56,547 nucleotides of DNA from Myxococcota bacterium. GTDB taxonomy: Bacteria > Myxococcota_A > UBA796 > UBA9615 > JAKLKC01. Positions within the stretch are counted from its first letter, which is position 1; the number at the start of each line of letters is the position of its first letter. The notes beneath the pieces are model-generated. The model made no database searches and was not told where the DNA came from. It was given only the letters and a program-made list of their open reading frames with translations. The translations under genes were made by a program, and so were the position numbers. The DNA is taken from the NCBI GenBank assembly GCA_023150875.1, contig JAKLKC010000045.1, positions 1-56,547 of the forward strand. The letters run 5' to 3'. Below are positions 33,703 through 37,638 of the stretch, in pieces.

Positions 33703-34428
33703 TCACCCGGGGGGCGGGGCGGCGGCCCCCCGGTCGGCGACCGCCCCCGCCGGGGGGAGCCCGAGGATCGCCTGGGCCACCTCGACCAGGGACCCGCCGC
33801 GCAGGTCGGGCCGGCCCATGACCGGCGAGAAGGAGAGGGAGGGCCGCTTGACCCAGGCCGTGGCGAGGTTGGCGCGGGCGGCGCCGTGCACGTCCCAGTC
33901 GTGGGCCGAGACCAGCAGCACCCGGGCGTGGTCGCCCCCGGCCACGTCCACGAGACGGTCGTAGACCTCGCGGCAGGGCTTCCAGCGCCCCACCTCCTCG
34001 ATGGAGACTACCCGCTCCACGAAGGCGTCCAGGCGGTGGCGGCGCAGCATCTCCCGGGTGACGTCCAGGGCACCCTGGGTGAGCACGAGGATCCGGACCC
34101 CCTCCTCCCGCAGGCGGATGAACGCCGGCTCGGCGTCGGGGCAGGGCCGGACCTCGGCCAGGGCGTCCAGGAGACGGTCCACCGCGGCGGGATCCTCGGT
34201 CTGCCCCCTCTCGGAGCGGAGGCCGGCGAGGACCCCCGCGGCCACCGCCCGGAAGGGGTGGAAGACCCCCGAGGCGGTGAGGGCGACGCCGTCCCGGAGG
34301 GTCCGGGCGAGGAACAGCTCCAGGTCCTCCGCGTGCAGTCCGGCCGCCTGGAAGCGAGGGCGGAGCGGGGCGAGGGAGAAGAGGGTCTCGATGGCGTCGA
34401 AGGCGACGACCGCGGGACGTCGCGGCAT
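33703..34428 (-). CDS. HAD-superfamily hydrolase (haloacid dehalogenase-like, 241 aa)
   Basis: The four HAD motifs are present: nucleophile Asp in VVAFDAIETLFSL (residues 7-19), the Thr in VRILVLTQGALDVTREML, the Lys in RWKPCREVYDRLV, and the acidic LLVSAHDWDVHGAARANL. The layout and the mostly helical cap (residues about 20-90) are those of class II haloacid dehalogenases and related phosphatases. The usual DAYGT is DAIET here, so dehalogenase activity is uncertain. The ATG at 34428 follows GGAGGT. The gene is divergent from the selenoprotein gene. Confidence 0.85.
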   Translation of the reverse strand: MPRRPAVVAFDAIETLFSLAPLRPRFQAAGLHAEDLELFLARTLRDGVALTASGVFHPFRAVAAGVLAGLRSERGQTEDPAAVDRLLDALAEVRPCPDAEPAFIRLREEGVRILVLTQGALDVTREMLRRHRLDAFVERVVSIEEVGRWKPCREVYDRLVDVAGGDHARVLLVSAHDWDVHGAARANLATAWVKRPSLSFSPVMGRPDLRGGSLVEVAQAILGLPPAGAVADRGAAAPPPG

Positions 34429-34509
34429 GGGGACCTCCGGGCGGCGGCGCGGGCCTGAGGGCTCGCGGTGCATCTGCCGTGCCCCGGCGCATCCCGCGGG
34501 CGAAGCGCG

Positions 34510-34539
34510 TTGACGCCCCGGCGCCGACGCGGCTAGGGT
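34510..34539 (+). promoter_or_regulatory. Candidate promoter for the selenoprotein gene
   Basis: TTGACG at 34510-34515 and TAGGGT at 34534-34539 are 18 bases apart, with the ATG at 34576. The start region (GGGGCCTGGGAGCGAAGC) supplies GGGAG as ribosome binding site. Confidence 0.45.
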
Positions 34540-34575
34540 GCGGGAGCCCCTTTCGTCGGGGCCTGGGAGCGAAGC

Positions 34576-35388
34576 ATGCGCGGAAGTCTCGTCCTCGCCG
34601 CCGGGATCCTGGTGGCTCTCCCCTCGGGCTGCGGTCCTGCTCCGGGGGACGACGACGACGCCCCGGCCGAGAACACCGACGGGGACTGCCTGACCGACGC
34701 CGAGGAGGCCGAGCTGGGCACCGATCCCGCGTCCACCGACAGCGACGGCGACGGGCTCGAGGACTGCGCCGAGCGGGACGAGATCGGCACCGACCCCACC
34801 CTGGCCGACACCGACGGGGACGGCTTCGACGACGCCGAGGAGATCGCCTGCGTCAGCGATCCCGCGGACGCCGCCGAGACCTGCTACGCCTGCGGCTGGC
34901 CCCACGGCGATCCCGGGGACCTGGAGTCGACGGGGGCCGACGAGGGGGACGTCATCGCCAACCTCGCCCTGTGGGATCAGTGCGGCGAGGAGGTCCACCT
35001 GTGGGACTTCACGGGGCCCTACTACATCCTCTACGCCACCGCCGAGTGGTGAGGGACGTGCAAGCGGGAGGTCGGCGACCTCCCCGACCGAGAGCAGGCA
35101 TTCCTCGACGAGACCGGGATCGAGATGTCCTACATCGTAGTCCTCTTCGAGAACCAGTCGGGGGGCATGCCGGACGCCGAGGATGCCGCCCAGTACGCCA
35201 AGGAGACCGGCTCGTCCTACCCCGTGACGGCCGACGTCGACCAGGCGATCTTCGACGCGATGCCCACCTTCCCGTCCATCCCGATGAAGTGCGTGCTCTC
35301 GCCGCGGATGCGGATCCTCGAGTGCTACTCCGAGCACGACGACGAGCTGGGCATGGCGGCCATCGCCGATCACGCCGGGGGGAGCTGA
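34576..35388 (+). CDS. Selenocysteine-containing thioredoxin-fold lipoprotein (270 aa, Sec159 at TGA 35050)
   Basis: The gene reads as one frame if the TGA at 35050-35052 is decoded as selenocysteine. Residues 1-19 are a lipoprotein signal (LVALPSGC). An acidic linker and calcium-binding type III-like repeats follow (DTDGDGFDDAEEI). From about residue 120 the protein is a redoxin domain: YYILYATAEW, then Sec-Gly-Thr-Cys in place of CxxC, then KREVGDLPDREQAFLDETG, a central strand MSYIVVLFENQSG, and a cis-Pro segment TFPSIPMKCVLSP. The part after TGA stays open for 111 codons with matching codon use to a final TGA. A perfect 8-bp hairpin starts 14 bases after the TGA. The likely role is a thiol/selenol oxidoreductase or peroxide-reducing enzyme at the cell envelope. 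A standard gene caller would cut it at 35052. Confidence 0.88.
35053..35084 (+). promoter_or_regulatory. Bacterial SECIS-like hairpin after the in-frame TGA
   Basis: GGGAGGTC (35066-35073), loop GGC, GACCTCCC (35077-35084) form a perfect 8-bp stem inside the coding region. The loop begins 21 bases past the TGA and opens with G. This fits the known rules for bacterial SECIS elements (apical loop about 16-37 bases after UGA, G among the first loop bases), where SelB binds. Confidence 0.8.
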
Positions 35389-35409: not shown

Positions 35410-37638
35410 CTACTCCACGGTGACGGTGGCCCGGGCCATGGCGTGGTCCCGCAGGTCCCACCCCCTCTCCGCCGCCAGTCCCCAGGGGGCGGGACGGTAG
35501 AGGAGCACCGCCTCGACGGTGACCTCGCCGCCGTCCCCGGGGGCGGTGAAGACGTGGGGGGTCGACGCCGTGACCCCCGGGGGCAGGCGGTTGTCGCTGG
35601 CCACCTCCACCGCTCGGTAGTGGGGCACGTCCCGGTCCCCAGCGGCGTCCACCAGCACCTTCGCGAAGGCGTAGCCCGGGAGCCCGGCGTAGGGGGCGGC
35701 CTCGGCTTCGTCGCCTACGGCCTCGAACACCCCGGCCGGAGCGCCGAGGAACACCCGATCCCCCGCCGCGACCCCCGCGGGCGCTTCCGTGAGGATCAGG
35801 GTTTCGCCATCCCAGCCCATGATCCTGGCGGTGGCGACGGGCTCGAACACCGGCATCCCCCGCTCGTCGGGGGGAAGGCCGAGGGCGCCGTAGCGGGCCG
35901 GGGCTGGGTAGTCGTCGAAGGCGCCGTCGCTCCGCACGAAGCGCGCCTCCAGGCCCCCCGCGGCGGCGCCGTCCACCCCGGGCAGGGTCAGTCGGTCGCC
36001 GTCCAGCGCCACGCCGTCCGCGCCGACGACCCCCTCCGCCCATGAAGACCCGAAGTCGGGGACGGTGTAGCCGCCGACGGCCGGGAGCGCCTGCCCCGAG
36101 GCGTCCCGGGCGCTCACCAGGAGCACGAGGCGGCGCAGGGGCTCCCCGGTGGGCACGGCGTGGCCGGCGCCGTAGTTCGCGGCCCGGACCTCGACGCGCA
36201 CGGTGTCGCCGTCCTTCTCCGCCGATACGGCCAGGGACACCGCCAGGTCCGCCAGGGGGCCCGCCTCGGGCTCCAGGTCGCCCCAGTCGTGGAGGGGGCC
36301 GGCGAAGCCGTGGCTCCGCACCTCGCCGAAGGGGCGGGGCCACCCTACGGAGATCCCGGGATCGTTGGCGCTGAAGAAGTCCCCGGCGGTGGTGGGCGCG
36401 TCGATGGCGGGCATGTGGCAGTCCTGGCAGACCTGCCCGAAACCGGCGGAGGGGCTCTCGGACCACTCGGTGAAGGTCTCGTGGACGGGCAGTCCCTCGG
36501 GCCACCTCGCCGCGTCCACCACCCCGCCGGGGAGGAGGGGAGGCTGGGCGTACTCGTGGCAGCCCGAGCAGAACTCCGATCCCGCGAACGCGGGCTGGTA
36601 GCTCGCCCCCATGTAGGGATTGAGCACGTCGACGTGGGAGCCGAACATCAGGGGGGCGTATTCCGAGGCGGGGCTGGGGGACGGCTTGGAGGGGCGCCGG
36701 AGCTCCAGCGCGCCGTCGAGGCCGGGCCGGGTGTTCGCCTGGACCGAGGCGACCTTGTGGCAGAGGTCGCAGCCGACCCCGTCGCTGAAGGCGATCCCCC
36801 GGGCGCGGTTGAAGTCCAGGTGTCCGGGGGCGACGCCCTCCTGGGCGGGGGCGTGGCAGTCCCCGCAGGAGCCGAAGACGCTGGGGGCGGCCGACGGGTG
36901 GTCGCAGGGGAGCGCCTCGCCGGGGCCGCACTCGCCGGGGTTGGCCTCGGGCAGCAGGCCCGCCCCCAGGTAGCACCGCTCGGCCGTTCCGTCCTCGCCC
37001 GGGACGCTCCCCTCGTCCCAGGTGCCCCCGGCGGCCTCGCAGGACGCGGAGTCGCCGATCCCACCGGCGGCGCCGTTGTAGAGGTCGAAGGTCCAGGGGT
37101 TCCCGGCGGAGCGGCGGTGGGCCGAGGTCTGCCAGGCGTCGGCGAAGTCGGTGTGGCAGTGGCCGCAGTAGGCGGTGGTGGGGGAGGCCGAGTCGCCGCC
37201 CGGCTGGAAGTGGTAGTCGGGGTTGTCCTGCGCCGGGATGGCCCCGAGGACGACGTCCCACGGGGCGTCGTAGGGCAGATCGGTGGCGTAGCCGTTGCGG
37301 TAGCCCACGAGGCCGGCCGCCACCAGGGGCTCCTTCCCCAGCTCCGCCTCGGGGATCTCCAGGCGGTAGGCCCCCTGGGCGTCGGAGACCGCGGACAGGG
37401 TCCCCCCGGCGTGCTCGACGACCGCCCCTTCCAGCGGCGCGCCCGCCTCGTCGACGATGCGGCCCTCGATGAAGCCCGGGTAGGGGATGGGCGGCGCGGT
37501 GTCGTCGTCGGGGGCGGAGTCGTCGTCGACCGGCGGCGCGGTGTCGTCGTCCGCGGTAGGCTCCTGGCAGGCGGCGAGGGAGGAGGAGGCGGCGAGGGTG
37601 GCCAGGGCGAAGAGGTGGGCGCGCGTCATGGGCGGCAT
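35410..37638 (-). CDS. Penta-haem cytochrome c lipoprotein with carboxypeptidase-regulatory-like domain (742 aa)
   Basis: The signal (LATLAASSSLAAC) is followed by the linker TADDDTAPPVDDDSAPDDDT. Residues about 55-125 are a CarboxypepD_reg-like beta domain (GFIEGRIVDEAGAPLEGAVV). Five haem-binding CxxCH motifs follow: CGHCH (about 157), CGDCH (258), CDLCH (289), CSGCH (356) and CQDCH (403). The rest is beta-rich (AVSLAVSAEKDGDTVRVEVR). It should be an outer-surface or periplasmic electron-transfer protein, as in multihaem cytochromes of the cytochrome c554/c-prime-like type. ATG 37638 is listed; ATG 37629 is equally possible. It is convergent with the selenoprotein gene, 21 bases apart. Confidence 0.85.
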   Translation of the reverse strand: MPPMTRAHLFALATLAASSSLAACQEPTADDDTAPPVDDDSAPDDDTAPPIPYPGFIEGRIVDEAGAPLEGAVVEHAGGTLSAVSDAQGAYRLEIPEAELGKEPLVAAGLVGYRNGYATDLPYDAPWDVVLGAIPAQDNPDYHFQPGGDSASPTTAYCGHCHTDFADAWQTSAHRRSAGNPWTFDLYNGAAGGIGDSASCEAAGGTWDEGSVPGEDGTAERCYLGAGLLPEANPGECGPGEALPCDHPSAAPSVFGSCGDCHAPAQEGVAPGHLDFNRARGIAFSDGVGCDLCHKVASVQANTRPGLDGALELRRPSKPSPSPASEYAPLMFGSHVDVLNPYMGASYQPAFAGSEFCSGCHEYAQPPLLPGGVVDAARWPEGLPVHETFTEWSESPSAGFGQVCQDCHMPAIDAPTTAGDFFSANDPGISVGWPRPFGEVRSHGFAGPLHDWGDLEPEAGPLADLAVSLAVSAEKDGDTVRVEVRAANYGAGHAVPTGEPLRRLVLLVSARDASGQALPAVGGYTVPDFGSSWAEGVVGADGVALDGDRLTLPGVDGAAAGGLEARFVRSDGAFDDYPAPARYGALGLPPDERGMPVFEPVATARIMGWDGETLILTEAPAGVAAGDRVFLGAPAGVFEAVGDEAEAAPYAGLPGYAFAKVLVDAAGDRDVPHYRAVEVASDNRLPPGVTASTPHVFTAPGDGGEVTVEAVLLYRPAPWGLAAERGWDLRDHAMARATVTVE

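Follow-up and report, generated by a model that had tools for sequence, protein, structure and literature searches.

ResA and CcmG are membrane-anchored reductases of apocytochrome c. Among bacterial selenoproteins, Prx-like thiol:disulfide oxidoreductases (PF00578) and a 'Redoxin family protein' (PF08534) are both listed with the active-site motif UxxC, and the peroxiredoxin (Prx) selenoproteins with the motif TxxU (PMC13188914, Table 1). The 'Prx-like, UXXC' group was first reported in PMC1088965. We have analyzed a gene that very probably codes for a lipid-anchored envelope redox protein with selenocysteine (Sec) at an apparent stop codon. It was found in a stretch of 56,547 nucleotides (hereafter the window, meaning the whole stretch of DNA analyzed) belonging to a draft genome of 6.9 Mb in 180 contigs, 98% complete (G000). 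Homologues were searched in this genome and in those of its order (7 genomes), its class (71) and a sample of its phylum (379).

The gene (34576..35388, + strand) starts at an ATG at 34576, contains one in-frame TGA at 35050-35052 and ends at a second TGA (35386-35388), with 111 sense codons between both. Reading through the first one gives a protein of 270 amino acids with Sec at residue 159, composed of a lipoprotein signal, three TSP3 repeats and a redoxin domain. The signal peptide, from which export of the protein is inferred, runs to the lipobox Cys19 (34576..34632), a residue that is invariant in all 13 aligned orthologues. The lipobox itself, LPSG-C with Pro at -3, is imperfect, and several of these orthologues have a canonical one. 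Three stretches recognized by Pfam as bacterial TSP3-type repeats, the calcium-binding type, follow approximately at 34690..34860 (PF18884, E 4.7e-14, the best stretch being residues 55-76), and then a CYxCGW motif containing C103 and C106 (34882..34899), invariant within the subfamily. The AhpC-TSA/redoxin match (PF00578, residues 124-229, 34945..35262, 30.1 bits against a cut-off of 26) spans residue 159, where the UGA (35050..35052) would be read, according to the alignment of homologues, as the first residue of a UxxC motif (Sec-Gly-Thr-Cys). Common to the subfamily are Cys19, the TSP3 region, CYxCGW, a DxC before the domain core, the UxxC/CxxC, a C-terminal P-x-x-C and C250; some seven cysteines besides those already named as lipobox and active site are invariant (C64, C92, C103, C106, C136, C239 and C250). 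The AhpC-TSA domain was found in 13 of 13 members and TSP3 in 11.

A preliminary description of this DNA had located the TGA at 35050, with 111 codons after it, exactly at the first Cys of a CxxC (AEW-[TGA]-GTCKREV), interrupting a redoxin domain that is preceded by calcium-type repeats. The position and the frame are exact, Cys homologues align at that codon, and the Pfam matches agree with both the repeats and the interrupted domain. The lipobox that it proposed is backed by the invariant Cys19 and weakened by the imperfect motif. On the opposite strand, a 556-codon open frame (33703-35373, -) lies antisense to the gene; it matches a HAD hydrolase only in its 3' part (about 33703-34434), the remainder resembling a high-G+C shadow frame.

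In an AlphaFold2 model made with Cys in place of Sec, the redoxin part has a pLDDT of about 92-98 before as well as after the TGA and the fold reaches about residue 269. Residue 159 stands immediately before a helix (160-180), and both model and alignment place a cis-Pro region at Pro236. The closest proteins, by sequence profile as well as by fold, were the pneumococcal lipoprotein thioredoxin Etrx2 and the Bacillus ResA. The thioredoxin-like fold and the CxxC position are both there, the extracytoplasmic location being taken from the signal sequence only. The curated ResA/TlpA models scored far under their cut-offs (NF002854, 21.9 against 170; NF047696, 19.7 against 230); the redoxin resembles ResA/TlpA in its working without belonging to their curated families. 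The Pfam AhpC-TSA/Redoxin matches, and the presence of AhpE and PrxQ in the list of structural matches, could also point to a peroxiredoxin-like peroxidase reducing hydroperoxides through Sec, instead of a protein disulfide reductase. We consider this unlikely, given that the best matches are ResA and Etrx2 and that the UxxC/CxxC site is the one of thioredoxin, ResA and TlpA and not the TxxU of Prx.

At a distance of 22 nt the redoxin gene faces a convergent gene (35410..37638, - strand) for a lipoprotein with five CXXCH motifs, whose product shows similarity to MtrC/MtrF and to cytochrome c7 (Cytochrome_C7), both weak, and a carboxypeptidase-regulatory-like domain (CarboxypepD_reg). Homologues of this gene, with 35-40% identity, adjoin the redoxin in five of 12 other neighbourhoods belonging to two classes (G163, G033, both copies of G008, and G167:C182), always on the same strand as the redoxin and about 0.1-1.8 kb away from it, and an additional one was found beside a Sec paralogue in G005. 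In three cases a di-haem gene is located between the two, twice of the SO2930 type and once of the MbnH/MauG type. The arrangement is not limited to Sec copies, one Cys copy (L174) having it too. No cytochrome neighbour was found in the remaining seven of the 12 neighbourhoods, some of them on short contigs, and no ccm or res operon was seen around the window gene. The MbnH-family di-haem enzyme adjoining the Cys orthologue (L174, 7961-9187, - strand) matched TIGR04039 with 352 bits, just below the cut-off.

The conserved five-CXXCH neighbour suggests that the redoxin is a reductase acting on c-type cytochromes, which are proposed as substrate because this neighbour recurs beside it. The same neighbourhood, with its MtrC/MtrF-like five-CXXCH, SO2930-type and MbnH/MauG-type di-haem proteins, would also be compatible with a function in extracellular electron transfer, the redoxin being then a redox partner of multi-haem cytochromes instead of a factor for their maturation. 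Such a role appears quite improbable: redoxins transfer electrons through thiol-disulfide exchange, the protein carries no haem motif, and the cytochrome neighbour is not universal.

The reading of the TGA itself was approached through the homologues. At the codon for the first position of the CxxC, 103 genes from many families of one class have TGA in 53 cases and TGC or TGT in 50; these genes are search matches that include distant paralogues, and the TGA-bearing ones were fetched preferentially, so that this proportion is not a census. On the maximum-likelihood tree 10 changes between Sec and Cys are needed, at least seven of them on well-supported branches. Judging from the genes, Sec and Cys are residues that have been interchanged many times across this large redoxin group. 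Close relatives with TGA number nine, distributed in eight other genomes (G005, G008, G009, G033, G068, G069 and, in another class, G163 and G167, the last one with two copies), and those with Cys are seven (G001, G008, G018, G019, two copies in G028, and G062). Within the order, the orthologue of G005 has TGA (51% identical) and that of G001 has TGC (47%). None of these orthologues ends at the TGA position; all continue, with Sec or Cys in the same column. Downstream of the TGA, six Sec orthologues retain 33-42% amino-acid identity, each with a single in-frame TGA at the same site, and the frame of the Cys orthologues is continuous across that column.

The genome of the window itself contains a paralogue whose corresponding active-site codon is also TGA (AFW-U-GACV; G000:C90:77105-77677, - strand, L002/L032). 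This second Sec redoxin has a lipoprotein-like start and TSP3-like repeats, and by eye its C-terminal tail resembles MYXO-CTERM. A tandem of three Cys redoxin lipoproteins, with SAMWCGPC and long Asp-rich linkers, was also found (G000:C111:27564-29533, - strand, L033). Elsewhere, Sec redoxin genes with FAAFW-U-G[AS]C appear paired or tripled on single contigs (L109, L111, L113, L122, L126, L127 and L129). Many of these clustered genes share nearly identical SECIS stems and are possibly tandem selenoprotein duplications. In the family members L064, L126, L147, L106, L099 and L095 the active-site context does not follow W-C/U-x-x-C, as in YVDTA, SQDGPT, MWAGPC or SDCGPC.

Downstream of the UGA there is a putative bacterial SECIS element (35066..35084, + strand) with an 8-bp stem formed by 35066-35073 (GGGAGGUC) and 35077-35084 (GACCUCCC) around the loop GGC (35074-35076), supported by covariation of the stem. 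The loop starts 21 nt past the UGA and the hairpin has -13.6 kcal/mol. The published constraints for bacterial SECIS elements are a loop of 3-9 nt, a stem of 4-16 bp, a spacing of 16-37 nt, G in the first two loop positions and an MFE of -7.5 or lower (PMC13188914), and with 3 nt, 8 bp, 21 nt, GGC and -13.6 the window element satisfies all of them, in agreement with the perfect hairpin, loop and bacterial spacing reported in the preliminary description. As proof of Sec the hairpin alone was dropped, and it is weak evidence because, of the 346 UGA trinucleotides in the window, whose DNA is rich in G+C, 20% are followed by an ungapped stem that qualifies in a comparable test (-7.5 kcal/mol or lower) and 2.3% reach -13.6; the 71-nt fold is ordinary compared with shuffles (z -0.49).

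What decides the question, as far as sequences can, is the comparative evidence: TGA or Cys at the same site, loss of the hairpin in the Cys orthologues and covariation of the stem. A strong hairpin (-7 kcal/mol or lower) was found in 48 of 53 Sec genes and in 6 of 50 Cys genes, and the best-hairpin energies of both groups differ with a Mann-Whitney p of 3e-13, uncorrected for kinship. Only seven independent pairs can be taken from the tree; hairpin and Sec coincide in about 4.8 of them and are opposed in 0.1, and because of the small number of pairs the sign test gives a median p of 0.06. In the focal clade the seven Sec members range from -7.5 to -14.0 kcal/mol and the seven Cys members from 0 to -6.2. 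The relatives that keep the TGA thus keep the hairpin and those with Cys have lost it; the Sec orthologues of the other class have -6.5, -6.9 and -8.6, two of them weak, and therefore hairpin strength varies. Five of the eight stem pairs changed on both sides in 38 Sec elements (for example C-G in 26 and G-C in 10). None of 500 shuffles reached the covariation score. These elements were chosen for a hairpin in one register, and their percentage of pairing leans for that reason towards structure, but the choice alone does not explain the covariation. The seven Cys orthologues showed no two-sided changes in the stem and 52% pairing.

The genome also encodes SelA (451 bits), SelB (333) and SelD (373), all above curated cut-offs. 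SelD is itself Sec-containing, with an in-frame TGA in a UxxK context (QCAG-U-ASK; G000:C116:11470-12399, L026). Of the four machinery genes, only the one for tRNA-Sec (selC) escaped detection in this draft of 180 contigs, with the Rfam covariance model as well as with two pattern searches (anticodon/T-arm, and anticodon-arm with 3 mismatches); the matches obtained were tRNA-Ser, tRNA-Leu, others, or a non-tRNA palindrome at G000:C149. Three relatives of the same order (G004, G005 and G006) do have a tRNA-Sec, scoring 71-75 bits. This gene is followed by 6 bases of contig in G004 and by about 0.5 kb in G006, and because it sits so near contig ends in both, loss of selC at an assembly gap in G000 is plausible. 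Throughout the class SelB was above the cut-off in 55 of 67 genomes; several that have Sec members (e.g. G041 and G056) gave none above it, most simply explained by incomplete assemblies. The preliminary description had considered this gene a likely selenoprotein, and the homologues with TGA or Cys at the same site, the SECIS covariation and the presence of SelA, SelB and SelD all favour that reading. On this comparative basis, SECIS-directed insertion of Sec at residue 159 is almost certain.

UGA recoding in bacteria competes with termination, and the portion before the TGA would by itself make a full lipoprotein carrying TSP3 repeats. The codon could accordingly act as a selenium-dependent switch, yielding the full redoxin with Sec and a short TSP3 lipoprotein without selenium. 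A switch of this kind seems distinctly unlikely, as the short product would terminate within the redoxin fold and the Cys orthologues keep the same architecture without any switch. That the TGA is a true stop, leaving a 158-residue TSP3 lipoprotein and a downstream part that is decayed or a separate frame, would be consistent with the failure to find selC in the assembly and with a possible restart of translation at the ATG at 35125. It is nevertheless very hard to reconcile with the conservation of the downstream frame in the six Sec orthologues, with Cys orthologues fused across the site, with a fold model that passes through it and with TGA or Cys at the same place in about 100 homologues. 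A sequencing error is ruled out by the TGA at this site in many genomes, and a reassigned code (TGA as Trp or other) is virtually inconceivable when the same gene stops at TGA, the Trp before the site is TGG, and homologues with the usual motif carry there Cys and not Trp.

Taken as a whole, the gene product is in all likelihood a Sec-containing, membrane-anchored extracytoplasmic thiol-disulfide oxidoreductase. From the comparative evidence, SelB would deliver Sec-tRNA at the UGA owing to the hairpin 21 nt downstream. The signature suggests that the protein would then be exported and lipidated at Cys19, the TSP3 (calcium-type) repeats serving as a spacer off the membrane. In model and alignment, the ResA/Etrx2-like domain would present Sec159-Gly-Thr-Cys162 where its active-site helix starts and, as expected for the family, the Sec selenolate would attack a substrate disulfide, the mixed selenosulfide being resolved by Cys162. 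The gene neighbourhood makes cysteine-rich envelope proteins the likeliest candidate substrates, in first place the neighbour's CXXCH haem-binding cysteines. Tentatively, the redoxin may reduce these cysteines of the multi-haem lipoprotein in analogy to what ResA and CcmG do on apocytochrome c.

The link with multi-haem cytochromes suggests a testable job for the redoxin. More speculative, and rather doubtful at present, is the idea that a deltaproteobacterial lineage expanded exported Sec/Cys redoxins, with paralogues going repeatedly from one residue to the other, and that their TSP3-anchored branch serves specifically to reduce multi-haem cytochromes of the outer envelope by means of selenium; if true, selenium would be connected with the assembly of extracytoplasmic cytochromes or with electron transfer. 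Exported selenoproteins such as these (53 in our set, from one class) are easily overlooked because standard annotation cuts the genes at the active site. The repeated swaps between Sec and Cys in lipoproteins that otherwise resemble one another, with the hairpin largely in step, provide natural paired material on why cells use selenium.

We found no description of a TSP3- or lipoprotein-type redoxin selenoprotein in the open-access literature, and this redoxin group, often beside multi-haem cytochromes, is apparently undescribed. The combination had been thought possibly new in the preliminary description, which holds for the TSP3-lipoprotein form and not for UxxC redoxin or Prx-like selenoproteins, already listed (PMC13188914); what is new is that form with a Sec redoxin, plus the five-CXXCH neighbour. 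With the Prx-like/Redoxin UxxC entries the window protein shares the Pfam domain, the UxxC motif, a bacterial SECIS and Cys homologues. The table entries are silent on lipoprotein or TSP3 forms; in the window protein, a TSP3 lipoprotein with about seven further invariant cysteines, the domain occupies the C-terminal part. The neighbouring cytochrome has a weak local likeness (25 bits against a cut-off of 250) to the ExtKL multiheme c-type cytochrome (seleno)protein (NF040886), but it lacks an in-frame TGA and falls outside that family. ResA, CcmG and TlpA coincide with the window protein in the fold, the CxxC position, an extracytoplasmic anchoring, predicted in the latter, and a c-type cytochrome neighbour; it differs from them in having Sec for the first Cys, a putative lipid anchor and TSP3 repeats, and from ResA in sequence, with only about 20% identity. 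The best match in both fold and sequence, the pneumococcal surface lipoprotein thioredoxin Etrx2 (SP_1000), has a lipid-anchored thioredoxin-fold domain, as predicted for the window protein, but Cys for Sec, no TSP3 repeats and other neighbours.
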